64,000 nucleotides of DNA from Saprospiraceae bacterium (lineage in GTDB: Bacteria; Bacteroidota; Bacteroidia; Chitinophagales; Saprospiraceae): the NCBI GenBank assembly GCA_020628645.1, contig JAHDES010000013.1, positions 42,174 to 106,173 on the forward strand, in the 5' to 3' direction. The notes beneath the pieces were generated by a model, which was not told where the DNA came from, did no database searches, and saw only the letters and a list, made by a program, of their open reading frames with translations. Shown piece by piece: positions 11,979-35,710 of this stretch (its first letter is position 1; each line of letters starts with the position of its first letter). The position numbers were made by a program, and so were the translations under genes.

Positions 11979-14900
11979 ATGTACAAGACGCAATTTCTAC
12001 TAATTGTAAGTTTATTAATCGTAGTAACCACAGTTGTACAAGCAAATGAAACAACTGCTACTATCCCAAAAAGTAGTAATGACGCTTACACAATTACCCA
12101 TCTTTGGAAGCGAATATGGCTATCTTTTATTCCTACTAAGGAAGATTTATTGGTAAAAAAAGAACTTAAAAAAGCAACACAAGCACAACAGATTTCACAA
12201 ATCATTGATGGATTTAAAGATAAAACATCAGTCACAAGTCAGCAAAAAGTGGCAAATTCTGCTACTTTTTTTCGCCGTTTAGAAGTCACAGAATGTTTCC
12301 GAACAGCCACCTGTGAAGCTGATGCAGAACAACTCGATAATGGTAATAATTTAGTGATCTGTGGAGCGAATAATCTTTCTGATTTAGAAATGGGCTCACT
12401 CGGTATAACGGATAATAATGTAGGACTCAATTTTGCTGGTTGGAATATTCCGCAAGGTGCTACGATCATCTCTGCACGTATACAATTCACGGCTGAACGA
12501 ACAATACGAGGGCCTGCCAATTTCCTAATTCGTGGAGTCGATCGCGATAATCCATCTGACTATAGTGTTGGAGATGATGTAATAACTCGTCCCTTAACAG
12601 GTACTTCGGTCAATTGGCAACCTGCCGATTGGACGGCAGGAAGTGCTAATGTAGCACAGTTAACTCCTGATTTAAAAGATATTATTCAAGAAATTGTCAA
12701 TCGACCTACTTATGCCTTAGGAAATAATATCGGTATACAGATTGCTGGATCTGGAACTCGATCTGCAATATCTTATGATATTAATCCGGCACAAGCACCT
12801 CAATTGTGTATTACCTACGATGTACCTGATCCTTCTGATCCACCTGAGCCGATTCAATGTGATGGTTGCTCGGAGATTAATGTTTCTTCTTTACAAGGCG
12901 TACCTAATTTTCCTCAGGTTGACATCCTAAATGTATGTAGTACGCCTGATACGGTATCTCTTTTAATGTACAATGCAGGAGAATGTCCAGTCACCAATAT
13001 GCAAATCACAGTGGAATTTGATAATGGACTAGCCTATGGAGGTTTTGTAGAAAGTCATAATCCAGATCAAACTATAACAGAGTTTAATGTATCCGATGGT
13101 AGTCGTCCTGTTTTTTTAGTAGAACAACTAGATACAGGGAAAGTAGTCATTGTCAATTTTGGGATGACTGGAGACTGTAGCTTGAATTTAGAAAATGATG
13201 AGCCACTCAATTTTGATGTCAATATTGATTTCTTTTCGAATACCTCTTCCAATGGTGTCCTAAAATGTAATGTGATGGAAGAAGGTATTGGGGAGTTCAA
13301 TTCTGGGATTAAAGTACCTGTTGTAAATATATTATCCATTACACCAGAATCGGTTGATTTAGCAAATTTCACCGATGAGTTTTGTCAGCAACTGGAGATT
13401 TCGCAAGACGGTATTGAAGCCACCTTGGATCATGTGAGTATGACGGTGGAGAATTTAGATTTAGGAGGCACCGTTTCCTTAAGTTCTATTCGAGTAAATG
13501 GAAATGTTGTCCCAGGAAGTTGGTGGAGTTATGATGCAGGTACGCAGATATTGAGTTTGCGGATTCGTCAAAATTTCTTCAATCAAAATACAGGAGGCAA
13601 TTCAAATAATTTCTTTGAAGAGAATGAGCGTTTAACCGTCGATTTCTGTTATCGGGCGAGTGGCTGTGTTGATCCTACTCAATTTTTGACCTATAGTGCC
13701 TTTTATGGTTGTAATAATGATATTTGTTTTGATATTTCATCGAAACAAGGAACATTGGATTCCCAAGCGGATTTTTCTGCAAATGTAAATGCGAGTGCTA
13801 GTTTTAACCAAGCTGGACAAATTTGTGGAAATGATCTTCTATTTGATGTTTCCATAAGTGCAAGTAATACACATCCATTAGAAGGTTTATGGAAAGATTT
13901 AATTATTAAATTTAATGCCTGTAATACACCTTTTTCAGAGGTGACGGCTATTGCTTTAAATGGTACACCTTTACCTTCCAATGTTTGGTCGGAAAATAGT
14001 GGATCGATTACAATAAATACAACAGCCAATACCACACCGATTGGCAACTTAGTGGATCAAGATGGGGATGGACGTTATGATGATTTGATGGGAGGTACTT
14101 CTTTGACCTTTAATATGACGATGGAGCTGAATTGTGCCGAAGACCCTTCTTGTGGTTCATCTCAATGTTCCATAGAACAAGTTGAAGTAAATGGAGTACG
14201 GGACTGTGGACAAACCTTCCAAGAGTTCGCTTCCTTAGGAGCGCCTGTAACCTATGGCTATGGAGAAACCAGTTTTATGACGTATGATACAATTGAGTAT
14301 TCAAATGGACAACATTATTATGAAAATTGGTATACGACTGTTCCTTGTGATGAATGGGGCCCAGCACCAAATGGGTTTAAACTAGAATATACCTATGGTA
14401 CAAATAATGTGGCTGCATGTACGAACTCTAATATTGTGGCTAAAGTACGATTGTCAGATAATAATAATTGGCATATGTGGCGAGATATTCGTTATGAGGC
14501 CAATTCGACTACCTATAATGGGACACCTATTGGAGGAATTGTTTTTGATTATATCTTAGATGATCATGGCGATACTACAGCTATCGAATTTGTTATTCCT
14601 GCAGGCGACCCCAATGCAGTCAATCATGAATATTACTTTAATATTGAAACTTCAGGAGATTGTCGCTCTGATCGTCACCTTTATGTAGAATGGGAAATAG
14701 TAGAACAATGTCCTGATTGTACAGGCAGTGATTGTGAGGTATTACGTTCTTGTCATAGCACCTTATCACGTATTCGTTGGAATGGAACGAATTGTATTTG
14801 TGATTGCGATTTTCAATCAATTACAAGAGCAGAACGCTCTACTTTTGGCTATACGGATTGTGGTTTAACCACAGCAATCAATCCTGCTAGTGTTCCTGCT

Positions 14901-17900
14901 GCTGATTTAAATCGTTTTATGCCGGGGGATGTGATGAAAGTAACAATGACGACAGAAATCTTAAATGTCAATGCCTTACGAGAAGGAAGTGAGCGATGGA
15001 GATGGCGTATTTTAGGGCCACATATTAATGCGCCTAGTGCGTGGGACAATGGAAATGCAGTGTTTGAAAATATCTATTTCGAAAAAGCAGGAACAGGCGT
15101 ACGTCAACCCCTTATTCCGACCTGTATCTTAGATGAATATCCAGCTAATCAACAACTCCATCATGATAACCCTAATGGTCGCAACTTTTCTATCGACCTA
15201 AGAAATGTAGGGGTAACACATACAGCACCTGTTAATAATATTGCTTGTCAAGATTTTTCTAATGCGACGAATCCTAATTATCCTTTTGATCAATCAGCTC
15301 CAAATGGAATGCGTTATTCTGATAATTCGACAGGCTGGGGGGCCTATCAAACCTGGACGGGAGCAAGATATTTTGGACATAATGATGGTTATGATTGGGA
15401 AGATGATGATATATATATACGGATGTATTTTGGAAATAATTTGGCTTGTGATGGAGCTACCGTTAATGAAGATGCAGATGCTTGTGCCAATGCGCTGGTA
15501 GATGCTTTTAATATGGAAAATGGCGATTCCTTTCACGTTGTGGTACATGTCCCTATCGTCGCTAATGGTTTTCATAAATTAGATAGTACGGATTATAATA
15601 ATCAGAATGTCAATGGAACTTTTAATACCTATGATCAAAGAACAACCAATTGTAATGCTGTTGAACATGTTGGAACGTCCTGTCAAACCGATAGCTATTA
15701 TGACTTTCATATTCCTGAAGTGGGGCATACGACTGAAGTAACCTTAAATGATTGTACCGTTGAAGTAGAACATACGATATACCTTACCGACACCCTACCA
15801 GAAGTCACAGCAGGTCAAACGCCTTGGTACGAAAATGAATACCGTCCAGCCATGGGGGTCGAATGGATTGAACCTTTCTTCCCGACCAATTTAGTTTATG
15901 ATGGTAATATGGTCATCGAAGATATGAATGGCGTACAAACGCCTATTTCCAATCAATGGATAGATGAAGAATATGGAAATCTACATTGTGAACCTGATGG
16001 TTTTGGAGGGGTTTGTTGTGTAGCCGCAGATCAGTCTGATTATGCTCGCTTACGGATTGTCGACCAAGCTTATATAGATGGAAAAGCGAATACCTGTTAT
16101 ATGTATGATGCGTATAACAAACCATTGATTAATCGTCATTTAGATCCGTTTCCGCTACTCGCTCAAAGTGGTGCAGGACGTTGTGAATTTAAAATAAAAT
16201 ATACCTTAACAGCACTTTGTCCAGAAGACATACAATCCTCTGATTTTGGATTGAATGGACAGTTTTCACATGTTTATCTACCTGATTTTCTAGCTCATCA
16301 TCGTTTAGCGAATAATTTGGCTGATCCAAATTCAGGAGTTGGGGAATATTTAGGTTTGCCTTTTGATCGAGTACATACGGACGGTACACCCTTTAGTTTT
16401 TTAGCTTGGGATGATAGTGAACACGGTTCTATTCCATATTGGCCATTTAGTATTCATCCAGATAAGTTTGCTAATCACTCTAGTCGTTTTGTAACGAGTG
16501 AAATCACCACACCTGATAATTTTAATGATTTATCGAATGGTTTCCCTCCTTTGATGGCAAGTGTAGATCGCTTATTGATTGCTGATGCAGCTGGTGCGAA
16601 TGAGACGGTGACCTATGAGCTGTGTGCAGGTAATAGCGCTGGTATGACGCATGATTATGTTTCGGCGACGATCCAAGTACCGCTTAGTGTAGAATTGATT
16701 GATATTCAAAGTTTAAGTGGTACAGGAAATACTTATACCTTAGTCCAAACTACTGCTACTCACAATGAGTATGTAATCGAGATGCGTGATTTGGCTCCTG
16801 GGGCTTGTGATCAAATTAATATCATAACAGAGTTGACCTTCTGTCCTACAGGAACAGGAGCAGATACCCGCATTAATATCAAAGCTAATAGTGGATGTGT
16901 GCCTGTGGCTAAATCATCTCAATTGCTGGCTGGTCTAGAAGTATGTAATGCAGTAGAAATGGCTTATGAATACATCCGAGAAGAAGCCGATATACAAGTA
17001 GAATGGGATCCGAATCCAGCTGGAGAATATGGTCTTTGTGATCGCATCTTAGTAGGTACACGAATCAAAAATGTAAAGCCTGCTGTATTGACAGATATTG
17101 ATACGCGATGGTGGTTCCCAGGAGGTTTAGAATTTGTACCGAATACTTGGCAAGTTTGTTATCCTGGCGGGCCAGGCAATGTCGGTCCTTGTGTATCTAT
17201 TCCTGATCCTACGATGAACGCGTCAGAAAATTCTGCCTTTGGCGAATATTTTGAATATGTCGATGATGCGATCTGGAGTGCTTACATTGCATCTAATGGT
17301 TTGAAAGGGGTAACTTCTTCCTTAGATAGTAATAAAGTGGCTTTCCGTTTTGAAGTAGAAACGCTTTGTGATGAATTTATTTCTGGAACGAGTATTTGGT
17401 TTCAAGCAGATGCAGCCGATCCATGTGAAGGTAGAGTAGAGTCGATGCAAGTACAATCTAATCCAGTGGTTATTGAAAATGCGAATCCACTTGACTTTGC
17501 ACAGTTTTATGTTTTTCCAGAACCCACCAATGTATATTGTGGAGTAGAAACGACAGTGGATTTGACCTTTTTGAATATTAGTCCACTAGGATTTACGGAA
17601 AACTCTACCGCTTGTATTGAGTTACAGGGTGATGTATTTGATTATACTCCTGGAAGTCTAGTATGGGTTACCCCCATTCATACTCCTACTATAGAAGAGA
17701 CAATTAGTGGAGCTGTAACTCGCATCTGTATGGATGTCCCTGATGGAATAGGGCCTAATGAAGTCTTTAAGTTAGAATTGACCTTTACGGTGCCAGATGA
17801 TGCACCTTGTGGCGACCAAAGTATGAATGTACAAGTCTTCACGGTGGTAGAAGATCAAGTATGTTCTGATCCACCGAGTAATTGCGATGTGAATGTAACC

Positions 17901-19607: not shown

Positions 19608-19633
19608 ATTTTAAAAACCAAAAACTTTTTCAT

Positions 19634-19812
19634 ACAAACCCTCATTCGATATAAGTAACCTAACTTATTTGCTTGTCGTATAACTGCATTCATCATAAAA
19701 AGAATAAATAACTGACTGTAAGAAAGTTATGCACGATTTTTTGATGAATTTTAAAAGCAGTTATTGACCAAATAATTAGGTGAACCTACTTATTATCGAA
19801 TGGGGGTTGTTT
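19634..19812. repeat. Long imperfect palindrome between giant genes 1 and 2
   Basis: The left arm (about 19634-19700) and right arm (about 19738-19812) are reverse complements with gaps. Matching blocks from the outside inwards are ATTCGATA.TAAGTA (19643 onward) against its complement near 19790-19801, AACCTAACTTATTT against the complement near 19770-19787, ATAACTGC (19679-19686) against GCAGTTAT (19757-19764), and ATTCATCA (19688-19695) against TGATGAAT (19742-19749). The whole is about 180 bp. It could fold into one long hairpin or cruciform. No ORF lies inside, so it resembles a small non-autonomous palindromic element. Confidence 0.6.
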
Positions 19813-20201: not shown

Positions 20202-23200
20202 ATGATGCACAAATTACAATCGCTATTCTTTACCATTTTATTGATGGGGACTACTTTCTTAGTTTCAGCTAATGAAATTAAAAGCTCCCTTGATCACCAA
20301 GAAAATATGCAGTTGTCTTCTTATACTGTTACACATTTATGGAAACGAATTTGGAATGCGTTTATACCAACTAAGGAAAGTATAAAAGCCTTAAAACTAC
20401 AGAAAAAAGTAGCACAAGAAACTCAAATTCAACAAATAATCAATGGATTTGAAAATAAAACTCCCGTCACTCATCAACAAAAAGTAGACAACTCTGCTTT
20501 ATTTTTCCGACGTGCCGAAGTCACAGAATGTTTCCGAACAGCTTCTTGTGAAGCGGATGCCGAACAATTTGATGGAGGGAATAATTTCCAAAATTGTGCT
20601 GCCAACAATGTCTCTGATTTAGAAATGGGAGAGTTGGGCAGTAATGATAATGTGGTTGGACTCAATTTTGCAGCTTGGAATATTCCGCAAGGCGCCACCA
20701 TCATTAGTGCGCGGATTCAATTTACGGCAGAACGAACGACTCGTGGCGCTGCCAATTTTATTATTCGAGGAGTAGATCGTGACAATCCAGTGGATTATTC
20801 CGCAGGAGATGATGTAATTACACGTCCCTTAACATCTAACTTAGTAACTTGGCAGCCACCAGATTGGGCGGCTGGTAGTGCTAATGTGGCGCAATTAACG
20901 CCTGATTTAACCGATATCATACAAGAAATTGTGAATCGTCCAACTTATGCACTAGGTAATAATATAGGTATTCATATCGAAGGTTCAGGCTTACGCTCTG
21001 CAGTATCGTATGATATTAATCCAGCGCAAGCGCCTCAATTGTGTATCACTTATGATGTACCTGATCCATCTGATCCACCACCACCAATCGAATGTGATGG
21101 TTGTTCAGAGATCAATATCTCGTCTCTACAAGGGGTGCCCAATTTCCCACAAGTAGATGTATTAAATGTGTGTAGTGCGCCCGATACCGTTTCTTTATTG
21201 GTATACAATGCGGGAGATTGTCCTGTTACCAACATGCAAATTACAGTCAATTTTGATAATGGACTTGCTTATGGCGGATTTGTAGAAAGTCACAACGCAG
21301 GACAAACTGTAAGTGAATTTAATGTCGCAGATGGAAGTAATCCTGTATTCTTGGTAGAACAATTAGATACAGGGAAGGTGATTATTGTCAATTTTGGTAT
21401 GACAGGGGATTGTAGTTTGAATCTCGAAAATGATGACCCTCTAAATTTTGATGTAAACATAGATTTCTTCTCGAATACTTCCTCCAATGGGGTTCTAAAA
21501 TGTAATGTTTCACAAGAAGAAATTGGAGAATTCAACAGTGGTATTAAAGTACCTGTTGTGAATGTTCTCTCTATTGATCCAGCTTCCGTTGATTTAGCGA
21601 ATTTTACGGACGAGTTTTGTCAGCAATTAGTGGTATCCCAAGATGGTATCGAAGCGACATTGGATCATGTAAGCATGACGGTGGAGAATTTAGATTTAGG
21701 AGGCACCGTATCCTTAGGTTCTATTCGTGTAAATGGTAATGTAGTACCAGGTGGCTGGTGGTCGTATGATGCAGGGACAGAAATATTGAGTTTACGAATA
21801 GGACAAAACTTCTTTAATCAAAATACAGGTGGTAACACAGATAATTTCTTTAATGAAAATGAACGCTTAACCGTTGATTTCTGTTATAGAGCTAGTGGTT
21901 GTGTTGACCCCACCCAGTTTATCACCTACAATGCTTTCTATGGTTGTAACAATGATATTTGTTTTGATATTTCTTCAAAACAAGGAACATTGGATTCAGA
22001 AGCCGATTTTTCAGCCAATGTAAATGCATCGGCTAGTTTTAATCAAGCGGGGCAGATTTGCGGAAATGATTTTCTTTTTGATTTTACGATTTCTTCTGAT
22101 AATTCTCAACCCTTAGAAGGATTATGGAAGAATTTGATAATTAAATTTAATGCTTGTAATACCTCATTTTCAGAGGTAACCGCTATCGCTATTGGGGGTA
22201 CTCCTTTACCGTCCAATCTTTGGTCAGAAAATAATGGTGCAATTACAATCAATACGACATCGAATACGACCCCGATAGGTAATTTAGTGGACCAAGATGG
22301 TGATGGACGTTACGATGACTTATTGGGTGGAACATCCTTGACCTTTAATGTTACCATGGATGTGACCTGTAGTGATGACCCGTCTTGTGGTACCGCTACT
22401 TGTTCAATCGAACAAATTGAAGTAAACGGAACAAGAGATTGTGGACAAAGCTTCCAAGAATTCGCTCCAATTACCCCTCCCATCACCTATGGCTATGGGG
22501 AGACTAGCTTTATAACCTATGATATCATACAAACGAATAATAATTATTATGAAAATGATTATGCAACAGTTCCTTGTGATGAATGGGGCCCAGCACCCAA
22601 TGGTTTTAGATTGGATTATACTTATGGCACAGATAACATTGCTCCTTGTACGAATTCCAATGTTTATGCAAGAATTACCTTGGATAATCATAATTGGGAT
22701 ATGTGGCGTGATATCCGTTATGAAGCGGGTTCTGCGACCTATAATGGGGCACCTGTCAATGGCGTTACCTTTGAGTATATACTAGATCAAAATGGAGATA
22801 CAACACAAATTGATGTAGTCATTCCTGCGGGTGATCCGAATGCGACTAATCACGCTTATTATTTTAATATAGAAACCTCTGGAGACTGTCGCCCTAATAG
22901 AAATCTTTGGGCAAATTGGGAAATCGTAGAAGAATGCCCAGATTGTACAGGAGGTGATTGTGAAATACTTCGCTCTTGCCATTCTGTATTAACACTAATT
23001 CGTTGGAGTTCGGTGAATTGTGTTTGTGATTGTGAATTTGCGACGCATACCACGAACAAACGCCTTACTTATGGACATACTGATTGTAATTTGACCACTC
23101 CTCTAACAGAGGCGAGTATTCCTGCACAAGACTTAAATCGTTTTATGCCTGGGGATATTATGGAAATCACTGGTACGGCAGAGATTTTAGATGTCAATGC

Positions 23201-26200
23201 CCTTAGAGATGGAACCACTCAATGGTCCTTCTATATAGACGGCCCTCATATCAATTCTGAGGGTGCGTGGGACAATATGAACGCCGTACTTGATAATCTC
23301 TATTTTCAAAAAGCAGGTTCAAACGTTCGTCAGCCTTTAATACCTACCTGTATCTTGGATGAATTTCCTGCCAATGGGCAGTTGCACTATGATTCACCTA
23401 ATCGTGATTTTCGCGTTTTAATATACGGTTTAGGGGTTAGTCATCGAAATCCAGATGATGGTTCAAATTGTATTGACTATAGTAATGCCGCGGCTAATTA
23501 TCCTTTTGACCAAACTTCTGCAACAGGTTATCGCTATACCGATGGCTCTTCAGGGCATTCGGGTTATGAATTATTTACAGGAGTGCAATATAATGATGTC
23601 AATCATAGTAATGACTTTTATGATTCTCGCATAGAGGTACATTTTCAGTTTGGGAATAATCTCACTTGTGATGGAGCATTGTATAATGAAGATGCGGATG
23701 CCTGCGCCAATAGCTTAGTCGATGCTTTTAATATGGAAAATGGGGATTCTATCCACATGGTAGTACGGGTGCCTATTGCTGCAAATGGGTTTCATAAACT
23801 AGATTTTCCAGATTATAAAACGGAAGAATCACGCTTTTTTGTCAACACCTATGATCAAAGAGAAACAAATTGTAATTCTACTATAGCAATAGGAGGTTCT
23901 TGCTGGACAGAAACGCCCTATCAAGTCTACATTCCAGAGGTCGATCATACAACAGAAGTGACGGTTAATGATTGTAATATAGAAGTAGAGCATACTATTT
24001 TTATAGCGAATCCGCTCCCAACAGTAACAGCAGGACAATTACCTTGGTATGAAAATGAATATCGAGGGGCAATTGGGGTAGAATGGATCGAGCCATTTTT
24101 TCCAACCAATATGATATATGATGGGAGCATGGTGATTGAAGATATGAATGGGGTACAAACACCCATTGCCAATCAATGGATTGATGATTCTAAAGGGAAT
24201 TTACATTGTGAACCCGATGGTTTTGGAGGGGTATGTTGCGTAGCAGCGGATAATTCTGATTATGCTCGTCTACATATTTTTGACCAAGCTTATATCGATG
24301 CAAAAGCTCATACCGATTGTTATTTATATGCTGCCTATAATGAACCACATATCAATCGTCATTTAGATCCCTTTCCACTACTTCCCGTATCAGGTGCAGA
24401 GGATTGTTTTTATAAAATCAAATACACCTTGACAGCTCTTTGTCCAGAAGATTTACTATCATCTGATTTTGGACTTAAAGGACAGTTTTCTCATGTTTAC
24501 GTACCAGATTGGTTTCAAACTAGAACGATAGCTAATTATTTAGCCGATCCTACTAAAGCTTATAATCAAAATATTGGCTTACCTTTTCCGACAAATGGTC
24601 GAGAAACTTTAAATGAAAATGGTGATCCATTGGGTACTTCCTATTGGCCATTTGGTCCAGATCCTGATTTATTTTCTGATCACCCGAGTCGTTTTGAAAC
24701 GAATGAAATTACAACACCAGATAATTTTGACGATTTTAGCAATGGTTTCCCTCCTTTACTAGCAGGTGTAGATCGTTTATTGATTGCCGATGAAGCAGGA
24801 GCAAATGAACGCGTTACTTATGAATTATGTGCTGGTAATAGTGCAGGTGCAACCCACGACTATGTATCGGCTACAGTAGAAGTTCCCCTGAGTATTGAAT
24901 TGATTGATATACAAAGCCTGAGTGGTTCTGGAAATACTTATTCCTTAGTAGAGACAACGCCAACACACAATATTTATGTGATCGAAATGCGCGATTTAGC
25001 CCCAGGGGCTTGTGATGAGATTGAAATTACAACCGAGTTGACCTTTTGTCCTACAGGAACGAATGCCGATACTCGTATTAATATTAAAGCCAATAGTGGT
25101 TGTTTGCCAGTAGCGAAATCTTCTCAATTATTAGCAGGCTTAGAAGTTTGTAATGCAGTGGAGACAGATTACGAATACATCCGTGAAGAGGCTGATATTC
25201 AAGCAGAATGGGATCCAAATCCAGCAGGTGAATATGGACTTTGTGATGAACTTTCGGTCGGTACTCGTATTAAAAACGTAAAACCAGCGGTGCTAACAGA
25301 TATTGAAACGCGTTGGTGGTTTCCAGATGGCTTAGAGTTTAAACCAGGTACTTGGCAAGTGTGTTATCCTGGAGGTCCAGCGAATTATGGGCCTTGTGTC
25401 AATATTCCTGATCCGACAATGAATTCATCGGAGAATTCTGCTTTTGGTGAATATTTTGAATATACGGATGATGCAATCTGGAGTTCATACATAAATTCTA
25501 ATGGATTGAAGGGAGTAGCCTCTTCTTTAGATAGTAATAAAGTTGCCTTCCGTTTTGATGTAGAAACACTTTGTGATGAATTTATATCTGGTACGAGTAT
25601 TTGGTTTCAAGCAGATGCTGCTGATCCATGTGAAGGTCGTGTACAATCGATGCAAGTACAATCGAATCCAGTAATTATCGAAAATGCCAATCCTTTAGAT
25701 TTTGCACAGTTCTTTGTCTTTGCTGATCCTACTGAAGCTTATTGTGGGAATGAAACAGTCATGGATTTAACCTTTTTAAATATTAGCCCATTAGGATTCA
25801 CGCAAGATAGTGAGGTCTGTATTGAATTAGAAGGAAGTGTTTTTGACTATACACCCGGAAGTTTATCTTGGATTAGTCCAATACATTCGCCCAATATTGT
25901 AGAAACGACGAGTGGAGCCGTCACCAAAATCTGTATGGATGTCCCTGATGGAATTGGCCCTAATGAAGTCTTTAAACTAGAATTAGCGTACACCGTACCA
26001 GATGATGTTGCTTGTGGCGATCAACACCTAAATATTCAAGTGACGACTACTGTAGAAGATCAAGTATGTTCAGATCCACCGAGTAATTGTGATGTAAAAG
26101 TTACAAATTCTGTAAATCCAATTTTAGATATCGAATTTAGTCCTCCATTACCAGTCAGTCGTGAAGATTTATTTGTACGTTGTACAAGTGGTGGCGGTAT

Positions 26201-27812
26201 GGTAGATATTTGTTATGAAGTAGAAGTAGGTAATATTAATGACGTGATGTATGCCGATAATTTTGATATCACCTTGATTCGAGATATTGATGGCAATGCT
26301 AGTTTGGATCATTATGACCCTATTTTAGTAACGGAAACGACCCCAGTGATTGTTCCACCAGGAGATAATCGTATTGTATCCAATTGTTTTACAGTGAATG
26401 CAACGGATGCTTGTCCTGTATTTATGCAGGTAACGCAAAATTCACCCTGTGTATGTGAAACGAAGCTAAGTTATCATCCAGCCATTGAACCCGAACCATT
26501 TGCCGCCTTAAATGATCAGGTGAATTTATGTCCGAATTCAACGATGAGTTTTGAATCTTGTGATGATTGGACGTATAGCGTATCACCATCGGCAGGAGGG
26601 ACATTTACTGATGATGGGGCAGGTAATATGGTATTTAGCCTAGCAAGTGGCTATGGTTTGGATAGTCCAGTGAAGATTCAAGTGACCTCAGCTATTGGTG
26701 CATGTGATCCAGAAACTTTTGAGAAAAAAGTGTACAGCCTTTCAGCCTTTAATTTAGGCCCTTATACCGCAACAGAAGTCTGTGAGACGGATTGTCAACA
26801 GCTAGATTTAAATATCTTAGCACAATATCGAGATAATGTAAGTGTAAGTTGGTCTCCTACCACTTTCTTAGATGATCCAACTTCTCAAACACCCACGATT
26901 TGCCAACCCACAAGTGATATAACTTATACGGTCACTGTTACTTTTACAGAAGATGGTCAAACTTGTGATTTCACACAAAATTTCCCAGTAGATATGATTG
27001 AACAGCCTGTCGTCGATGTAATCCCTGATGGAAAATTATGTAGTGTAGCAGAATCCACCTTCACGGCACCTCCAGGTTTTGATACCTATGAATGGTTATA
27101 CCTCAATGATGATGGAACGGAAAGTTTTGTAGCGGCAGGTCCATCCAATGAACTATATACAGAGACCGTCGGGTTTTATTATGTCTTGTATTATAATGCG
27201 ACGGATGTATGTAAGACACGTTCTGAAGATTTTGAATTAGAATATTGTATAGATTACGGTGATCTACCTGATGTAGGTGCGGGTACAGGAAATTTGAATT
27301 ACGAAACAGACACCTTAAACAATGGCCCAGCCCATGATGTGGAAGAAGGCTTCTATTTAGGATCAAGAGTGGATGATGAGTATAATGGTCAACCTGATGG
27401 AACAGCCACAGGAGATGGATTGGATGAAGATGGGATTACTTTTCCTTCCAATATTCATTGGACCCAAGGAAGTCATGTCCGTATTCCATTTAGTGTAAAC
27501 AACCCAAGTGGTCAACAAGCGGAGTTAGAAATTTGGATTGATTGGAATGGAGATGGCGATTTTGATGATCCAGATGAATGGGTCGTCGATATATCAGATA
27601 ATGGCTTTGGTGATTTTGGTCGAAATGGTTATTTAACGATTTATGTACCAGAAAGTATTTCACCAGATACAGAAATTGGGTTTAGAGCTCGATTAAGCCA
27701 TACGGATAATATGACTCCAAATGGGCGAATAAATTCAGGAGAGGTAGAGGATTATCTGCTTCGAATAGATTGTGATAATGTCTGCTTACCAGTAAGAAGT
27801 TCGATGGATTAG
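20202..27812 (+). CDS. Giant exported GEVED-domain protein 2 of 3
   Basis: The 2,536-residue paralogue of protein 1 has the same domain order: signal peptide (1-23, ending VSANE), YTVTHLWKRIWNAF (41-54), a glutamine/lysine-rich helical stretch (60-90), a jelly-roll-like domain (about 105-285), a long run of cysteine-rich Ig/DUF11-like repeats, and a GEVED domain (about 2347-2530) ending in CLPVRSSMD. N- and C-terminal thirds are very close to protein 1, for example IEFSPPLPVSREDLFVRC against IEFNPPLPVSRDDLFVRC. The middle (about residues 750-1450) is much more divergent from both neighbours, for example LPFPTNGRETLNENGDPLG where the others have VHTDGTPFSFL. No sorting domain is visible. A strong terminator at 27839-27871 ends the transcript. 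It is probably exported and disulphide-rich; function unknown. Confidence 0.8.
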   Translation: MMHKLQSLFFTILLMGTTFLVSANEIKSSLDHQENMQLSSYTVTHLWKRIWNAFIPTKESIKALKLQKKVAQETQIQQIINGFENKTPVTHQQKVDNSALFFRRAEVTECFRTASCEADAEQFDGGNNFQNCAANNVSDLEMGELGSNDNVVGLNFAAWNIPQGATIISARIQFTAERTTRGAANFIIRGVDRDNPVDYSAGDDVITRPLTSNLVTWQPPDWAAGSANVAQLTPDLTDIIQEIVNRPTYALGNNIGIHIEGSGLRSAVSYDINPAQAPQLCITYDVPDPSDPPPPIECDGCSEINISSLQGVPNFPQVDVLNVCSAPDTVSLLVYNAGDCPVTNMQITVNFDNGLAYGGFVESHNAGQTVSEFNVADGSNPVFLVEQLDTGKVIIVNFGMTGDCSLNLENDDPLNFDVNIDFFSNTSSNGVLKCNVSQEEIGEFNSGIKVPVVNVLSIDPASVDLANFTDEFCQQLVVSQDGIEATLDHVSMTVENLDLGGTVSLGSIRVNGNVVPGGWWSYDAGTEILSLRIGQNFFNQNTGGNTDNFFNENERLTVDFCYRASGCVDPTQFITYNAFYGCNNDICFDISSKQGTLDSEADFSANVNASASFNQAGQICGNDFLFDFTISSDNSQPLEGLWKNLIIKFNACNTSFSEVTAIAIGGTPLPSNLWSENNGAITINTTSNTTPIGNLVDQDGDGRYDDLLGGTSLTFNVTMDVTCSDDPSCGTATCSIEQIEVNGTRDCGQSFQEFAPITPPITYGYGETSFITYDIIQTNNNYYENDYATVPCDEWGPAPNGFRLDYTYGTDNIAPCTNSNVYARITLDNHNWDMWRDIRYEAGSATYNGAPVNGVTFEYILDQNGDTTQIDVVIPAGDPNATNHAYYFNIETSGDCRPNRNLWANWEIVEECPDCTGGDCEILRSCHSVLTLIRWSSVNCVCDCEFATHTTNKRLTYGHTDCNLTTPLTEASIPAQDLNRFMPGDIMEITGTAEILDVNALRDGTTQWSFYIDGPHINSEGAWDNMNAVLDNLYFQKAGSNVRQPLIPTCILDEFPANGQLHYDSPNRDFRVLIYGLGVSHRNPDDGSNCIDYSNAAANYPFDQTSATGYRYTDGSSGHSGYELFTGVQYNDVNHSNDFYDSRIEVHFQFGNNLTCDGALYNEDADACANSLVDAFNMENGDSIHMVVRVPIAANGFHKLDFPDYKTEESRFFVNTYDQRETNCNSTIAIGGSCWTETPYQVYIPEVDHTTEVTVNDCNIEVEHTIFIANPLPTVTAGQLPWYENEYRGAIGVEWIEPFFPTNMIYDGSMVIEDMNGVQTPIANQWIDDSKGNLHCEPDGFGGVCCVAADNSDYARLHIFDQAYIDAKAHTDCYLYAAYNEPHINRHLDPFPLLPVSGAEDCFYKIKYTLTALCPEDLLSSDFGLKGQFSHVYVPDWFQTRTIANYLADPTKAYNQNIGLPFPTNGRETLNENGDPLGTSYWPFGPDPDLFSDHPSRFETNEITTPDNFDDFSNGFPPLLAGVDRLLIADEAGANERVTYELCAGNSAGATHDYVSATVEVPLSIELIDIQSLSGSGNTYSLVETTPTHNIYVIEMRDLAPGACDEIEITTELTFCPTGTNADTRINIKANSGCLPVAKSSQLLAGLEVCNAVETDYEYIREEADIQAEWDPNPAGEYGLCDELSVGTRIKNVKPAVLTDIETRWWFPDGLEFKPGTWQVCYPGGPANYGPCVNIPDPTMNSSENSAFGEYFEYTDDAIWSSYINSNGLKGVASSLDSNKVAFRFDVETLCDEFISGTSIWFQADAADPCEGRVQSMQVQSNPVIIENANPLDFAQFFVFADPTEAYCGNETVMDLTFLNISPLGFTQDSEVCIELEGSVFDYTPGSLSWISPIHSPNIVETTSGAVTKICMDVPDGIGPNEVFKLELAYTVPDDVACGDQHLNIQVTTTVEDQVCSDPPSNCDVKVTNSVNPILDIEFSPPLPVSREDLFVRCTSGGGMVDICYEVEVGNINDVMYADNFDITLIRDIDGNASLDHYDPILVTETTPVIVPPGDNRIVSNCFTVNATDACPVFMQVTQNSPCVCETKLSYHPAIEPEPFAALNDQVNLCPNSTMSFESCDDWTYSVSPSAGGTFTDDGAGNMVFSLASGYGLDSPVKIQVTSAIGACDPETFEKKVYSLSAFNLGPYTATEVCETDCQQLDLNILAQYRDNVSVSWSPTTFLDDPTSQTPTICQPTSDITYTVTVTFTEDGQTCDFTQNFPVDMIEQPVVDVIPDGKLCSVAESTFTAPPGFDTYEWLYLNDDGTESFVAAGPSNELYTETVGFYYVLYYNATDVCKTRSEDFELEYCIDYGDLPDVGAGTGNLNYETDTLNNGPAHDVEEGFYLGSRVDDEYNGQPDGTATGDGLDEDGITFPSNIHWTQGSHVRIPFSVNNPSGQQAELEIWIDWNGDGDFDDPDEWVVDISDNGFGDFGRNGYLTIYVPESISPDTEIGFRARLSHTDNMTPNGRINSGEVEDYLLRIDCDNVCLPVRSSMD

Positions 27813-27838
27813 TTACTTAAATTATATTTAATAAGGAG

Positions 27839-27871: not shown

Positions 27872-27915
27872 ATGTAATTTGTTCTATATAAGACAAAAAT
27901 GAACCATTAAAACAA

Positions 27916-27935: not shown

Positions 27936-28075
27936 ATTTGGCATTATTTTGGTTTCTCCTTAAAAAACACATCCCTACTAGAGTCTTTTTATTTCTCCCC
28001 ATCCCCTTCATTAGTTTTCCCGAGCACAGATAACAATACTACACTATTTATCATCAAGTAGATAAAGTTAAATTT

Positions 28076-31000
28076 ATGTACAATAACAAGTTTTTGTTGG
28101 TTGTACTAGCCCTCAGTCTAGTACAATCAGTTAGTGCCAAAAATGATAATGGGGCACTTGAGAATAATCAAACGGCAAGCTTTTCCATTTCCAATTATAC
28201 AGTTACCCATTTGTGGAAACGACTTTGGAACGCTTATACTTCATTAGAGCAGCAAGTAGTCAGGGAACAAAATGCAACGAACCAATCCCAACAGATTCAA
28301 CAAATAGTTGCTCAATTAGAAGAAAACCAAGTTATTGGTACACCAGTTCGTACTAATGAATTTGCTAGTTCGATGCGAATGCCTACAGAAGCCACCGAGT
28401 GTTTTCGAACAACCTCTTGTGATACAGATGCAGAACAATTGGTAGATGGCGGAAATTTAGCGATTTGTGGCGATGCGAATTTAACGGATTTAGAGATTGG
28501 AAATTTAGGCTCAAGATCCAATGTAGTGGGGTTAAATTTTGCGGGTTGGAACATTCCCCAAGGCGCTACGATTTTGAATGCGCGGATACAATTTACTGCC
28601 TATACGACGAATCGAGGCCCCTCGAATTTAACGATTAGTGGTGTAGATCGGGATAATCCTGCGGTCTATAGTTCTGGTGATAATGTGATTACCCGACCCT
28701 TGACTACTACTACAGTGAATTGGTCACCCCCAGATTGGGTGGCGAATGAATCAGGTGTAGGTCAATTAACGCCCGAATTACGAGACATTATCCAAGAGAT
28801 TGTGAATCGCCCTACTTATGTACAGGGCAATAATATAGGATTACACATCACAGGCTCAGGTACACGCAGAGGAATAAGTTATGATATTGATCCAGCCCGT
28901 TCCCCTGAATTGTGTATTACTTATGAGATCCCTGATCCTGATCCCGAACCAGAGCCAGTTGAATGCGATGGCTGTTCACGTATTAGTATATCTTCTTTAC
29001 AAGGTGTTCCTAACTTTCCCCAAGTAGATATATTGAATGTATGTAGTACACCTGATACCGTTTCATTATTGGTTTACAATTCAGGCGATTGTCCAATTAC
29101 GAATATGCAAATTGGTATTGCCTTAGATCAAGGATTGGCCTATGGTGGTTTTGTAGAAAGTCATACAAATGATCAGACGGTCTTAGAGTATGATGTAAGT
29201 GATGGTTCAAATCCGATTTTTCTAGTAGAACGCCTAGATACGGGGAGGGTAGTGATTGTCAATTTTGGGATGACGGGTGATTGTAATGTGAATTTAGAAA
29301 ATGATGAGGCCTTAAATTTTGATGTGAACATTGATTTCTTTTCAAATACTTCCTCGAATGGTGTGTTGAGTTGTAATATGCAACGAGAAGGAATTGGCGA
29401 ATTTAATAGTGGGATTAAAGTACCCGTAGTGAATCTATTATCGGTTAATCCCCAAGAAGTAGATTTAGCGAATTTCACGGACCAATTTTGTCAACAACTA
29501 GATATTTCTCAAGATGGTATTGATGCGGTATTGGACCATTTGAGTATGACAGTAGAAGGCTTAGATTTAACGGGTACAGTTACCCTTGGAAGTATACGCG
29601 TCAATGGTAATGTGATACCTACTTCATGGTATTCCTATGATGGAGGCACACAAAGATTGGATTTGAGAATAGAAGACAATTATTTTAATCAAAATACTGG
29701 AGGCAATTCCAATAATTTTTTCGATGAAGGCGAACGAATGACGGTGGAGTTTTGCTATCAGGCCATTGGTTGTGTCGATCCTGCCCAATTTATCACCTAC
29801 AATGCCTTTTATGGTTGTAATAATGACATTTGTTTTGACATTTCTTCCCAACAAGGAAGTCTTAGTTCCAATGCAGACTTTGGCGCGAGTGTGAATGCGA
29901 GTGCCAATTTTAATCAAGCAGGACAGATATGTGGGAATGATCTACTCTTTGATTTTACGATTAGTTCGAGTAATTCACATCCTTTAGAAGGCTTATGGAA
30001 AGATTTGGTGATTAAATTTAATGCCTGTAATACACCATTTTCAACCGTAACAGGAATTGCCCTAAATGGCACACCTTTACCTTCCAATGTTTGGTCAGAG
30101 AGTAGTGGGGCGATTACGATTAATACGAAATCTAATACCACGCCGATTGGCAACTTAGTGGATCAAGATGGGGATGGACGTTATGATGATTTAATGGGGG
30201 GGACTTCTCTTCGGTTTGATATAACGATGGAACTAAATTGCTCAGAAGATCCATCTTGTGGCTCGGCTCAATGTTCCATAGAACAGATAGAAGTAAGTGG
30301 TACTCGTGACTGTGGTCAAGATTTCCAAGAATTCGCCACATTAGGAGCGCCCGTCACTTATGGTTATGGCGAAACAAGTTTTGTAACCTACGATACAATT
30401 GAAGCCTACAATCATTATTATGAAAATTGGTACACGACCGTTCCTTGTGATGAATGGGGCCCAGCTCCAAATGGCTTTAAATTAGAATATACCTATGGTA
30501 CAAATAATGTGGCTTCTTGTACCAACTCAAATATTGTAGCTAAGGTACGAATGTCAGATAATAATAATTGGCATATGTGGCGAGATATTCGTTATGAGGC
30601 CAATTCGACTACCTATAATGGGACACCTATTGGAGGAATTGTTTTTGATTATATCTTAGATGATCATGGCGATACTACAGCTATCGAATTTGTTATTCCT
30701 GCAGGCGACCCCAATGCAGTCAATCATGAATATTACTTTAATATTGAAACTTCAGGAGATTGTCGCTCTGATCGTCACCTTTATGTAGAATGGGAAATCG
30801 TAGAACAATGTCCAGATTGTACAGGTAGTGATTGTGAGGTATTACGTTCTTGTCATAGTACCTTATCACGTATTCGATGGAATGGCACGAATTGTATTTG
30901 TGATTGTGATTTTGAGTCATACACTAAAGCAGAACGCTCTACATTTGGTTATACCAATTGTGGGTTGACTACAGCGATTAATCCAGCTAGTGTCCCTCCT

Positions 31001-34000
31001 GCTGATTTAAATCGTTTTATGCCAGGGGATGTGATGAAAGTAACGCTTACGACGGAGATTTTAAATGTTAATGCCTTAAGAGAAGGAAGTGAGCGTTGGC
31101 GCTGGCGTATTTTAGGCCCACACATCAATGCACCAAGTGCATGGGATAATATGAATGCAGTTTTTGAAAATGTCTATTTTGAAAAAGCAGGATCGGGAGT
31201 TCGTCAACCGCTGATTCCGGATTGTATCTTAGATGAATTTCCAGCGAATTCTTCACTTCATCAAAGTTCAACTCAGCCTTTTTATGTGGAACTAAGTAAT
31301 ATAGGTGTTGCTCATACGAGTTCAGTCGATAATATCGCCTGTCGAGATTTTTCAAATATCACTAATCCTACTTATCCTTTTGATCAAGCAAGTCCTAATG
31401 GGGTACGCTATTCAGATAATTCAACAGGATGGGGAGATTATCAGTTGTGGACTGGGGCAAGATATATAGCTCGTAATGATGGTTATGATTGGGAAGATGA
31501 TGATATGTATATCCATTTCTTTTTTGGAAATAATTTGGCTTGTGATGGGGCATTATACAATGAAGATGCAGATGCTTGTGCCAATGCACTAGTAGATGCC
31601 TACAATATGGAGAATGGTGATTCTTTCCATGTGGTGGTACATGTACCGATCGTTGCCAATGGTTTTCATAAATTAGATAGTACGGATTATAATAATCAAA
31701 ATATCAATGGTACCTTTAATACTTGGGATCAAAGAACAACCAATTGTAATGCTATAGAACATGTAGGAACATCCTGTCAAACAGATAGTTATTATGAGTT
31801 TCATATTCCAGAAGTAGGACATACGACTGAGGTGACCGTGAATGATTGTACCGTAGAAGTAGAACATACAATATTCCTCACCGATACCCTTCCAGAAGTT
31901 ACAGTAGGACAAACGCCTTGGTATGAAAATGAATATCGTCCTGCTATGGGGGTAGAATGGATTGAACCTTTCTTTCCGACCAATATGGTTTATGATGGCA
32001 ATATGGTCATCGAAGATATGAATGGGGTGCAAACACCTATTTCCAACCAATGGATAGATGATGAATATGGGAATTTACATTGTGAACCTGATGGATTTGG
32101 CGGCGTATGCTGTGTAGCGGCAGATCAATCTGATTTTGCGCGTTTAAGGATTGTCGATCAAGCTTATATAGATGGTAAGGCGAATACTTGTTATATGTAT
32201 GATGCCTATAACAAACCCTTGATTAATCGCCATTTAGATCCTTTTCCGCTTTTAGCTGCTAGTGGCGCGGAACGATGCGAATTTAAGATAAAATATACCT
32301 TGACGGCCTTATGTCCAGAAGATATACAATCCTCTGATTTTGGATTGAATGGGCAGTTTTCGCATGTTTATGTACCCGATTTTCTTGCCTATAATCGTTT
32401 GACTAATAATTTAGGAGATCCAAATTCAGGGGTAGGGGAATATTTAGGGACACCGTTTGATCTTGTACATACAGATGGTACGCCTTTTAGCTTTTTACAA
32501 TGGAACGATACCGAACATGGAGCAAGACCTTATTGGCCCTTTGCTCCACATCCAGATAAGTTTTCGAATCACCCCAGTCGATATGTAACGAGTGAGATTA
32601 CGACCCCCGATAATTTTGCCGATAATAGCAATGGATTTCCACCCCTTTCTTCTTCAACAGATCGTTTGTTGATAGCGGATGAAGCAGGCGTAAATGAGAC
32701 AGTGACCTATGAACTTTGTTCAGGTAATAGTGGAGGTATGACGCATGATTATGTTTCAGCGACCATTGAGATACCTTTGAGTATTGAATTAATTAATATA
32801 GTAAGTTTGAGTGGGACGGGTAATTCTTATTTTCTAGTAGAAACGACTCCTACTCATAATATTTATGCCATTGAGATGCGAGATTTAGCGCCTGGCGCTT
32901 GTGATCAGATTGATATTACAACAGAGCTGACCTTCTGTCCTACAGGTACGAATGCCGATACTCGAATTAATATCAAAGCGAATAGTGGTTGTTTACCAGT
33001 TGCAAAATCTTCTCAATTATTAGCAGGCTTAGAAGTGTGTAATGCTGAGGAAACGGCTTATCAATACATCCGAGAAGAAGCCGATATCCAAGCGGAATGG
33101 GATCCTAACCCATTTGGGGAATATAGCTTATGTGATGATATCGAGATGGGGATACGAATTAAGAATGTAAAACCAGCAGTATTGACAGATATCGAACCTA
33201 AATGGTGGTTTCCAAAAGGTTTACTATTTAAAAATGCGTCATGGGAGGTGTGCTATACTGGTGGTCCTACACACATTAATAATTGTACCACGATTCCCGA
33301 CCCTACACCAGTAGCATCGGAGAATTCTGCCTTTGGCACCTATTATGAATATGCCGATGATGGCATCTGGAGTTCGTATATCAATACCTTTGGTTTACCA
33401 GGCGTGGGTTCTAGTTTAGATAGTAATAAAGTGATGTTCCGTTTTATAGCGAATACAGAATGTGATGAATTTGTAAGTGGGACGAGTGTATGGTTTCAAG
33501 CCGATGCAGCGGATCCATGTGAAAGTCGAGTAGCCTCGATGCAGATTCAATCGAATCCCGTGATTATAGAGAATGCGAATCCGAATGATTTTGCACAGTT
33601 TTTTGTATTTGCGGAACCAACGGATGCGTATTGTGGAGTAGAAAACACTTTAGGCTTAACCTTTTTAAATATCAGTCCCTTGGGTGAATCGAGTGAGAGT
33701 AGGGTTTGTATGGATTTACAAACAGATATATTTGATTATACACCTGGTAGTGTACGCTGGCTGAGTCCGATCCATAATCCAGCTATAGAAGAAAGCTCGA
33801 CAGGAGCAGTGACGACGATATGTATGACGATCCCAGATGGGATAGGACCGAATGAAGTTTTTCAATTAGAGATGGATTTTACGGTACCGAATGATGCGGG
33901 CTGTGGCGCACAGACAATGAATATACAAGTAACGAGTACGGTAGTAGATCAACAATGTGATGCGATGGGTACGGTTTGCGATGTGGATGTATTGAATACG

Positions 34001-35710
34001 GTTAATCCCCAGTTGGATATAGACTTCAACCCACCATTACCAATAAAAGGTCAACGTTTGAGTGTAAGTTGTACCGATGGAGACGGAATGGTAGATGTGT
34101 GCTATGAAGTAGATATTAGTAATATTAGTGATGAGATGTATGCGGATAATATAACGGTGAGCATCATCCGCGATTTAGATGGGAATGGTCGCTTAGATCC
34201 CTATGATCCATTATTAGCATCAGAGACGACGCCCTTAGTACTGCCAGTAGAAGATGAGCGTCGATTGACAGGTTGTTTTAGTGTAGCAAGTACAGATGCC
34301 TGTCCCTTATTCTTACAGGTACAACAATCGAGTGGCTGTATTTGTGATACGGAAACAACATATTTTGATGGCTTAGAACCAGAAGATTTTGCGAAGCTAC
34401 CGGATTTAGTAAATATCTGTCCAAATAGTTCGATTTCCTTACGCACGTGTTCCGATTGGTCGTATGCCTTATCACCTAGTGGAGCAGGTACGGTAGTAGA
34501 TGATGGTAATGGAAATACGGTGATTACTTTGGGTAGTGGTTATGGAGTAGATAATTCGGTTACTTTAGAAGCAACTTCTACCACAGGAGCTTGTGATAAT
34601 GTAACTTTTGAGCGTAAGCTGTATAGTTTAGCCGATTTTGAAGTAGGGCCTTATACGGCAGTAGAAGTTTGTGAGACGGATTGTCAACAATTAGATTTAC
34701 GAGTACCAAATCAATATCGTGATAATGTAGAAGTAAGTTGGTCACCGACGACTTTTTTAGATGATCCTACTTCACAAACGCCAAGGATCTGTCAACCTAC
34801 AGGAGATATTACTTATACGGTGACGGTAACATTTACGTCCCCTGATGGGAGTACGACCTGTGATTTTACAGCGAATTTTCCAATAGATATGATCGAACAA
34901 CCAATTGAGAATAGTATACCAGATGGGAAGTTGTGTAGTATAGCGGAATCGACCTTTACAGCACCAGTAGGTTATGAGACCTATGAATGGATCTATGTAG
35001 CGGCAGATGGGACGGAAAGTTTTGTGAGTGTAGGAAGTTCGAATGAATTGTATACAGAGACGGTTGGTTTTTATTATGTGTTGTATTACAATGCGACGGA
35101 TGTATGTAAGACGCGCTCGGAAATATTTGAATTGGAATATTGTATTGATTATGGCGATTTACCAGATGGGGGCACGGGAACGGGCTATTTGAATTATGAG
35201 ACAGATACCTTGAATAATGGCCCTGCGCATGATGTAGAAGAGGGCTTTTATTTGGGAGCGCGAGTAGATGAAGAATACAATGGCCAACCAGATATGACGG
35301 CGACGGGCGATGGAGCAGATGAGGATGGCTTTACGTTTCCCTTACATGTACAATGGACACCAGGGAGTCATGTTCGCTTACCCTTTAGTGTGAGTAATCC
35401 GAGTGGGAATCAGGCGGAATTAGAGATATGGATTGATTGGAATGGGGATGGTGATTTTGATGATCCGAATGAATGGGCAGCGGATATATCAGATAATGGC
35501 TTAGGCGATTTTGGGCGGAATGGCTACATAACGATTTATGTGCCAGAGGATATATCCCCAGGCTTAGATATAGGTTTCAGAGCAAGATTGAGTCATGAGA
35601 ATAACATGACGCCATATGGACGGATTGCAACGGGAGAAGTGGAGGATTATTTACTTCGTATTGATTGTGATACCAATGTCTGTTTGCCAGTTCGATCGAA
35701 CTTTGATTAA
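28076..35710 (+). CDS. Giant exported GEVED-domain protein 3 of 3
   Basis: The 2,544-residue third paralogue has a signal peptide (1-21, ending VSAK), YTVTHLWKRLWNAY (41-54), a glutamine-rich helical segment (58-82), the jelly-roll-like domain (about 108-285), a long cysteine-rich repeat region and a GEVED domain (about 2355-2538) ending CLPVRSNFD. Its two ends are the most divergent of the set (WSPPDWVANESGVGQLTPEL; FNPPLPIKGQRLSVSC), but its middle is nearly the same as protein 1, including 247 identical base pairs at 30552-30798. The last 2.5 kb seems to use more G-ending codons (gcg, acg, ggg) than genes 1 and 2, which may indicate a separate history. There is no visible sorting domain. 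A cell-surface or extracellular role is inferred from the architecture only. Confidence 0.8.
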   Translation: MYNNKFLLVVLALSLVQSVSAKNDNGALENNQTASFSISNYTVTHLWKRLWNAYTSLEQQVVREQNATNQSQQIQQIVAQLEENQVIGTPVRTNEFASSMRMPTEATECFRTTSCDTDAEQLVDGGNLAICGDANLTDLEIGNLGSRSNVVGLNFAGWNIPQGATILNARIQFTAYTTNRGPSNLTISGVDRDNPAVYSSGDNVITRPLTTTTVNWSPPDWVANESGVGQLTPELRDIIQEIVNRPTYVQGNNIGLHITGSGTRRGISYDIDPARSPELCITYEIPDPDPEPEPVECDGCSRISISSLQGVPNFPQVDILNVCSTPDTVSLLVYNSGDCPITNMQIGIALDQGLAYGGFVESHTNDQTVLEYDVSDGSNPIFLVERLDTGRVVIVNFGMTGDCNVNLENDEALNFDVNIDFFSNTSSNGVLSCNMQREGIGEFNSGIKVPVVNLLSVNPQEVDLANFTDQFCQQLDISQDGIDAVLDHLSMTVEGLDLTGTVTLGSIRVNGNVIPTSWYSYDGGTQRLDLRIEDNYFNQNTGGNSNNFFDEGERMTVEFCYQAIGCVDPAQFITYNAFYGCNNDICFDISSQQGSLSSNADFGASVNASANFNQAGQICGNDLLFDFTISSSNSHPLEGLWKDLVIKFNACNTPFSTVTGIALNGTPLPSNVWSESSGAITINTKSNTTPIGNLVDQDGDGRYDDLMGGTSLRFDITMELNCSEDPSCGSAQCSIEQIEVSGTRDCGQDFQEFATLGAPVTYGYGETSFVTYDTIEAYNHYYENWYTTVPCDEWGPAPNGFKLEYTYGTNNVASCTNSNIVAKVRMSDNNNWHMWRDIRYEANSTTYNGTPIGGIVFDYILDDHGDTTAIEFVIPAGDPNAVNHEYYFNIETSGDCRSDRHLYVEWEIVEQCPDCTGSDCEVLRSCHSTLSRIRWNGTNCICDCDFESYTKAERSTFGYTNCGLTTAINPASVPPADLNRFMPGDVMKVTLTTEILNVNALREGSERWRWRILGPHINAPSAWDNMNAVFENVYFEKAGSGVRQPLIPDCILDEFPANSSLHQSSTQPFYVELSNIGVAHTSSVDNIACRDFSNITNPTYPFDQASPNGVRYSDNSTGWGDYQLWTGARYIARNDGYDWEDDDMYIHFFFGNNLACDGALYNEDADACANALVDAYNMENGDSFHVVVHVPIVANGFHKLDSTDYNNQNINGTFNTWDQRTTNCNAIEHVGTSCQTDSYYEFHIPEVGHTTEVTVNDCTVEVEHTIFLTDTLPEVTVGQTPWYENEYRPAMGVEWIEPFFPTNMVYDGNMVIEDMNGVQTPISNQWIDDEYGNLHCEPDGFGGVCCVAADQSDFARLRIVDQAYIDGKANTCYMYDAYNKPLINRHLDPFPLLAASGAERCEFKIKYTLTALCPEDIQSSDFGLNGQFSHVYVPDFLAYNRLTNNLGDPNSGVGEYLGTPFDLVHTDGTPFSFLQWNDTEHGARPYWPFAPHPDKFSNHPSRYVTSEITTPDNFADNSNGFPPLSSSTDRLLIADEAGVNETVTYELCSGNSGGMTHDYVSATIEIPLSIELINIVSLSGTGNSYFLVETTPTHNIYAIEMRDLAPGACDQIDITTELTFCPTGTNADTRINIKANSGCLPVAKSSQLLAGLEVCNAEETAYQYIREEADIQAEWDPNPFGEYSLCDDIEMGIRIKNVKPAVLTDIEPKWWFPKGLLFKNASWEVCYTGGPTHINNCTTIPDPTPVASENSAFGTYYEYADDGIWSSYINTFGLPGVGSSLDSNKVMFRFIANTECDEFVSGTSVWFQADAADPCESRVASMQIQSNPVIIENANPNDFAQFFVFAEPTDAYCGVENTLGLTFLNISPLGESSESRVCMDLQTDIFDYTPGSVRWLSPIHNPAIEESSTGAVTTICMTIPDGIGPNEVFQLEMDFTVPNDAGCGAQTMNIQVTSTVVDQQCDAMGTVCDVDVLNTVNPQLDIDFNPPLPIKGQRLSVSCTDGDGMVDVCYEVDISNISDEMYADNITVSIIRDLDGNGRLDPYDPLLASETTPLVLPVEDERRLTGCFSVASTDACPLFLQVQQSSGCICDTETTYFDGLEPEDFAKLPDLVNICPNSSISLRTCSDWSYALSPSGAGTVVDDGNGNTVITLGSGYGVDNSVTLEATSTTGACDNVTFERKLYSLADFEVGPYTAVEVCETDCQQLDLRVPNQYRDNVEVSWSPTTFLDDPTSQTPRICQPTGDITYTVTVTFTSPDGSTTCDFTANFPIDMIEQPIENSIPDGKLCSIAESTFTAPVGYETYEWIYVAADGTESFVSVGSSNELYTETVGFYYVLYYNATDVCKTRSEIFELEYCIDYGDLPDGGTGTGYLNYETDTLNNGPAHDVEEGFYLGARVDEEYNGQPDMTATGDGADEDGFTFPLHVQWTPGSHVRLPFSVSNPSGNQAELEIWIDWNGDGDFDDPNEWAADISDNGLGDFGRNGYITIYVPEDISPGLDIGFRARLSHENNMTPYGRIATGEVEDYLLRIDCDTNVCLPVRSNFD

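Follow-up and report, generated by a model that had tools for sequence, protein, structure and literature searches.

The window, by which we mean the whole stretch of 64,000 nucleotides from a Saprospiraceae bacterium that was analysed, carries three adjacent genes for proteins of about 2,540 residues. What kind of proteins are these, how could they reach the cell surface, and how have the copies come to differ? Four alternatives had to be distinguished: the copies could be surface adhesins, alternative or mixed subunits of one appendage, proteins whose ends do not serve export at all, or duplicates of a protein used in polymer degradation.

Three tandem genes of one layout

The first-pass annotation had described three genes on the same strand with lengths within eight residues of each other, a common layout and a GEVED end, and in these respects it was correct (Table 1). 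The open reading frames have no internal stops in the window translation, N-terminal hydrophobic leaders are visible in the translations of all three, and GEVED (PF20009), situated at the extreme C-terminus of each copy, is the sole Pfam domain above the cut-off. The description of the body as 'DUF11-like' found no sequence support, as DUF11 (PF01345) was not matched by the three proteins at E ≤ 1 in Pfam; true DUF11 repeats follow the same body in some giant relatives. The NCBIfam scan yielded no matches for the three proteins at E ≤ 1, the Pfam and NCBIfam scans revealed neither type A nor type B domains of the type IX secretion system (T9SS; PF18962/TIGR04183 and PF13585/TIGR04131) and no catalytic domain, and a whole-protein search of PDB sequences with copy 1 gave zero matches. 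The three-copy locus is real and coherent, and its family has no name in Pfam and NCBIfam; the kind is already known, namely the large Ig-chain surface proteins of Bacteroidota. The newest part is the end of the protein, yet it may already carry a putative NCBIfam name.

Table 1. Features of the three genes, in window coordinates
Feature	Position	Strand	Remarks
Copy 1	11979..19607	+	2542 aa; hydrophobic leader, cap, head, GEVED/CxxxC tail
Copy 2	20202..27812	+	2536 aa; layout as copy 1
Copy 3	28076..35710	+	2544 aa; layout as copy 1
Cap, copy 3 (residues 98-290)	28367..28945	+	no Pfam match; equivalents 12264-12839 (copy 1), 20499-21074 (copy 2)
Head N-half, copy 3 (residues 298-1010)	28967..31105	+	equivalents 12861-15005 (copy 1), 21096-23231 (copy 2)
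Head C-half, copy 3 (residues 1512-2356)	32609..35143	+	GhpA-resembling Ig/PKD-like domains; equivalents 16515-19043, 24720-27248
Terminal DYGDLPD-GEVED module, copy 3	35144..35707	+	C-x4-C-L-P tail; equivalents 19044-19604, 27249-27809 (C-x3-C-L-P, copies 1, 2)
Exchanged central block, copy 1 (type a)	13836..16457	+	informative-site analysis
Exchanged central block, copy 2 (type b, nearer to sister protein)	22071..24662	+	informative-site analysis
Exchanged central block, copy 3 (type a)	29942..32551	+	informative-site analysis
247-bp DNA-identical tract, copy 1 / copy 3	14452..14698 / 30552..30798	+	likely recent conversion tract

The pairwise identities of the copies are 79, 77 and 69%, and each copy has 79 cysteines, a pI of about 4.1 and a mass of about 280 kDa. 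Every one of the 79 cysteines of copy 3 is kept in the three copies, as are 73 of the 79 across six family members, against an overall invariance of only 659 out of 2442 columns; hence the likeness of the three copies is not due to chance. The cysteine count is odd in each window copy, so at least one cysteine could be free for cross-linking; the sister protein from the same-genus genome G150 has 80. All three copies have calcium-loop-like motifs, detected with an expression that we wrote ourselves, around residues 696 and 2454.

When the upstream regions of the three genes were compared by blastn, the only match between regions was one of 12 bp, and a consensus Bacteroidota promoter was found in none of them. 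No PorP/SprF gene adjoins the three genes, and their neighbours look mostly unrelated, the exception being an acetyl xylan esterase-like gene. At five other loci of the same genome with terminal-GEVED genes, inspected by eye from ORF starts, there was no recurring partner gene to support the dedicated extracellular structure or undescribed machine of the first-pass annotation; its other suggestion, an exported adhesin-type family with varying copies, is the best supported one, given the T9SS domains on giants with the same head, the fold matches and the mosaic structure described below.

Two further surface-protein loci lie in the window. A protein with SprB repeats and a type A sorting domain (35931-40250, minus strand) converges on copy 3, and positions 47920-60687, about 12 kb downstream, hold a PorP/SprF-type gene together with genes for a PD40 protein and for a protein of 3042 aa, the end of which was matched by CHU_C when the genome was searched; we read these as a type B T9SS adhesin cluster.

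The head, its predicted fold and its relatives

The body between the cap and the terminal module, or the head, comprises about 2,060 residues (approximately 298-2356 in copy 3). Two AlphaFold models of the head (pLDDT 76.5 and 81.7) are mostly beta and consist of chains of beta-strand domains. Their PDB matches include the Ig-like domains of PrgB (E 9.2e-21), the neck of the grappling-hook protein GhpA, second in the Foldseek ranking (7.9e-15), the GhpA base (5.8e-11), sortase pilins and the C-domains of AgI/II, all of these being matches of generic beta-sandwich domains with low global TM-scores. The models thus suggest a chain of beta-sandwich domains resembling adhesins, pilins and the Aureispira grappling-hook protein. 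The head N-half has the Ig-like domains of PrgB and antigen I/II among its best matches in structure, but with approximately 10% identity the likeness is one of fold only. The profile search of PDB with the cap returned one designed protein and antibody chains.

The likeness to GhpA (Aureispira sp. CCB-QB1; PDB 9flp, 9fly and others) lies in the giant size and the tandem Ig-like domains, whose repeats are matched by the C-half profile and the model. The C-half profile reached E 2.4e-24, spread over many repeats, and the strong stretches are confined to generic Ig/PKD-like repeats (profile positions about 567-821; best single stretch i-E 0.0016), while the N-half profile had no match among PDB sequences at E ≤ 10. 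Since only the generic repeats match, and no full-length homology was found, orthology with GhpA was rejected. GhpA also differs in that it is described as a heptamer of 5898 residues per chain (PMC13319060), versus about 2540 residues in the window proteins. The fibrillar adhesins of the CshA type likewise have GEVED inside a large multidomain protein, but there, as described in PMC10952558, stalk domains come after GEVED, whereas in the window copies only the short tail does. The NR2 ligand-binding domain, which precedes GEVED in the CshA type, is absent among the Pfam matches of the three proteins.

The head occurs almost only in Saprospiraceae. Besides the three copies, our genome (6.18 Mb, 98 contigs) encodes another full-length paralogue, the fourth, at 42% on contig 89; eight further proteins share the end only. 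In the family sample, 31 of 150 genomes, our own included, gave a match at E ≤ 1e-30; head parts were present in 26 of these (again with our own), and only the cap or only the GEVED end in five. In nearly all genomes only two candidates were scored, hence the copy numbers in this sample are lower bounds. Phylum-wide, the N-half profile matched four of 296 sampled genomes, three of them from Saprospiraceae (including our own) and one, partially, from outside; a scan that retained organism names gave 38 loci, all from Saprospiraceae, Chitinophagales or Bacteroidetes MAGs and Neolewinella aurantiaca SSH13. Relatives outside the window were compared with copy 3: the N-half gave identities of 20-40%, the C-half 24-48%.

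The idea that the tandem arrangement is conserved was borne out in part. Pairs recur in three relatives, i.e. in MAG-185 (the genome G150, JAHDEQ010000017.1; 63% and 41%), in MAG-65 (two giants on one contig) and in Neolewinella aurantiaca (2193 and 2116 aa), but none of the 31 stretches of relatives that were read, many of them short contigs, contains two head ORFs.

In the relatives, whose ORFs reach about 9,700 aa, the head is N-terminal, preceded by the leader or the cap. Six of the head ORFs seen are 3'-complete and longer than 3,000 aa, and we call these giants. The type A domain PF18962 forms the end of four of them (8098, 6211, 9016 and 3547 aa; one at 26.3 bits with a cut-off of 27). 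Ahead of this domain, the last 600 residues contain SdrD_B in three giants and DUF11/DUF7507 in one, and the post-head stretches read in two of the four are DUF11-rich. Of the remaining giants, one (L189, 4020 aa) has a C-x4-C tail at its end and no Pfam match in the last 600 residues, and the other (L210, 4956 aa) matches neither Pfam nor NCBIfam there. Three kinds of C-terminus occur among the shorter 3'-complete head proteins: GEVED followed by the tail, the tail with GEVED lacking (G026, 2054 aa), and a third ending, LLVDCG.F.WDG, seen in a protein of G116 (L071, 1496-7867) and in the N. aurantiaca pair (L212, 6023-12601 and 13324-19671). The third ending has neither GEVED nor any Pfam or NCBIfam match in its last 120-150 residues, and it is possibly another C-terminal signal. 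A T9SS domain at the end of every giant head protein was accordingly rejected: with one giant ending in the tail, one in no known domain and three head proteins in the third ending, not all head proteins have a recognised signal.

Thus, the SdrD_B/DUF11 giants with a type A domain have the same N-terminal head as the window copies, but possess a stalk and a sorting domain of their own; in the window copies both are absent, and the head runs into GEVED and the tail instead. The cap is also found without the head in other genomes. On plasmids of Sinorhizobium and Ensifer the cap has relatives that are 41-43% identical, and one ORF of G020 contains it twice, so the cap is a module that has spread.

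The GEVED end and a putative sorting tail

The window copies have a C-x(3-4)-C-LP tail at their end, and the distance from the GEVED motif to this end is 24-25 residues. Among the 22 ORFs with GEVED in the same genome we observe two fractions. In the first (n = 12), the protein stops 24-26 residues from the motif start, which leaves no room for a sorting domain; all 12 tails contain two cysteines 4-5 positions apart, and X-P follows the second cysteine in nine. In the second (n = 10), GEVED is followed by a type A domain in nine cases and by a 3-coathanger domain in one.

Similar endings were found in other Saprospiraceae. In 10 of the 150 family genomes the match to the terminal-module profile (191 positions) extends at least to position 184 (E ≤ 1e-25), and in all 14 such loci that were read the protein stops 24-32 residues from the GEVED motif, the first tail cysteine being missing in one of them (L154). 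No such ending was seen at 29 further loci from the class-wide sample (L118-L146), in eight of which the expression did not locate the motif. The profile search of PDB with the terminal module gave nothing. An expression for the tail, written after the tails had been seen and missing the three of the 12 own-genome tails without the proline, matches 25 of 239 distinct ORFs of at least 300 aa, 22 with GEVED and three without, in a set of loci enriched for this family. The tail as a general feature of the proteins of this genome was rejected, as only two of 444 ORFs (40 stretches, 800 kb) match, and neither of them resembles the tail. As a separate observation, a 4020-aa head protein and a 1299-aa ORF at one locus (L189) share the near-identical ending CPP.RC.PI.ITKK, and in G062 (contig 1, about 851192-860200 and 1500065-1502722) ORFs of 6570 and 4833 aa contain long arrays of similar GEVED modules.

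The nearest named model is CVP-CTERM of NCBIfam (NF058574, 17 positions, 'putative sorting domain'). It was matched at E ≤ 10 by four of 22 aligned tails, one of them at 26.5 bits, over the model's cut-off of 19, and by none of the three window tails. In a search of 11 genomes the sole match over the cut-off was the end of a head protein (G072, contig 234); below it, other such ends are mixed with apparent chance matches, and sub-cut-off matches occurred in eight of 14 control genomes. The window tails hence resemble CVP-CTERM in their extreme C-terminal place and in that relatives with an aligned tail match the model, but they themselves fall short of it, and the function of the model is itself putative.

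Our genome carries a T9SS. SprA_N was found in 10 of the 11 genomes with the terminal module, including our own (E 2.4e-143); the exception is G072, a fragmented MAG with several terminal-GEVED proteins. Our genome also encodes at least 150 type A and at least 45 type B T9SS signals over the cut-off. Three types of T9SS sorting domains, A, B and C, are described in PMC10202324, type C being the C-terminal domain cl41395, and PorV and PorP/SprF are named as T9SS shuttles in PMC12618676. As similar tails on some relatives match CVP-CTERM, we infer that the tail replaces the T9SS signal. The literature searched yielded no paper on Saprospiraceae and GEVED together.

Probable exchange between the copies and the likely role of the locus

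In the alignment of the three proteins, copies 1 and 2 are nearest to each other at both ends, and copies 1 and 3 in the middle. We applied a four-sequence test to the copies and the sister protein from G150 (201 informative sites). Within residues 623-1492 (copy 3 numbering), 90 of 100 sites join copies 1 and 3 against copy 2 and the sister protein, with which copy 2 sides at the informative sites of the block; outside, only 14 of 101 do so. The best window has z = 10.8, a value reached in none of 200 permutations (maximum 4.0). Copies 1 and 3 also share the identical tract listed in Table 1; the next one in length between them measures 50 bp, and in neither of the other pairs does an identical tract reach 40 bp. 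Synonymous divergence of this pair is 0.72 in the block versus 1.25-2.46 in the other regions listed. Copies 1 and 3 therefore likely share their middle third by exchange, judging from these sequence comparisons. Positive selection on the exchanged block was unsupported: dN/dS does not exceed 0.28 in any region compared (being 0 where dS is saturated), hence the copies look constrained, and exchange explains the pattern better than positive selection.

The genes are best read as a tandem adhesin locus in which exchange of the central region has created diversity. Specifically, we consider it reasonably probable that the products are paralogous surface adhesins, predicted from sequence, that are exported and anchored via a short CVP-CTERM-like tail and varied by exchange of the central block. 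The leader would bring the protein into the periplasm, from where the T9SS of the same genome, with its SprA, would carry it through the outer membrane by means of the C-terminal tail. The disulfide-rich beta-sandwich chain with its calcium-loop-like motifs could then project the cap and the central region as a short, rigid adhesin near the cell, while in relatives a long DUF11/SdrD_B stalk would lift the same head. Exchange between adjacent copies would reshuffle the central block, which probably carries the binding specificity, e.g. to neighbouring cells or matrix. The fold class, together with the attachment to other bacteria reported for some Saprospiraceae (PMC9304909), suggests a role in attachment for the three proteins.

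The same observations have to be weighed against other explanations. It is quite unlikely, in our opinion, that the genes encode a multimeric appendage, a hook or fibre organelle of the GhpA kind in which the three copies would serve as subunits, either as alternatives or in mixture. The near-equal length of the tandem copies and the GhpA matches of the C-half profile and the head models would fit such an organelle, but the strong GhpA stretches are generic repeats, the N-half finds no counterpart in PDB, and the window copies have no long repeat stalk. An end that is no export signal, leaving the proteins in the periplasm or in a disulfide-linked outer-membrane sheath reached by another route, seems unlikely as well. 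While the missing type A and type B domains, the odd cysteine count and the terminal-GEVED genome without detected SprA agree with it, the same head sits on proteins with T9SS domains, related tails match a putative sorting-domain model of NCBI, and the cysteine count of the sister protein is even, at 80.

We regard it as very unlikely that the genes are plain tandem duplicates of a protein that binds substrates or acts as a scaffold in polymer degradation and has no adhesive role. In one study, T9SS was present in all five wastewater Saprospiraceae genera considered and was linked to polysaccharide degradation (PMC9304909), and a cap with no head attached is found in other genomes as well as on plasmids from other phyla, both consistent with such a role; the scans of the three copies nevertheless showed no catalytic domain, and the neighbouring genes, apart from the acetyl xylan esterase-like one, seem mostly unconnected.

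Returning to the adhesin locus, a more far-reaching version of it can be proposed only tentatively, and we hold it to be doubtful: the C-x4-C-LP tail, on GEVED and on other ends, might be a working signal for outer-membrane export and anchoring, a further class beside types A, B and C, and the tandem locus might be a natural mosaic generator in which central binding cassettes are traded by gene conversion, with cassette types kept across species.

The head is large, nearly family-specific and adhesin-type, and has been without a name in Pfam or NCBIfam. It is used in a modular way, either joined to a stalk and a T9SS signal or followed by a short GEVED end, and the latter ties a putative sorting tail to an adhesin-type head. 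Saprospiraceae are abundant in wastewater plants, and some cells, a minority of those studied, were seen attached to other bacteria (PMC9304909); the three genes are therefore candidates for testing how partners are chosen. The locus shows visible exchange between neighbouring giant genes, and through such exchange the cell would be able to change its adhesion targets.
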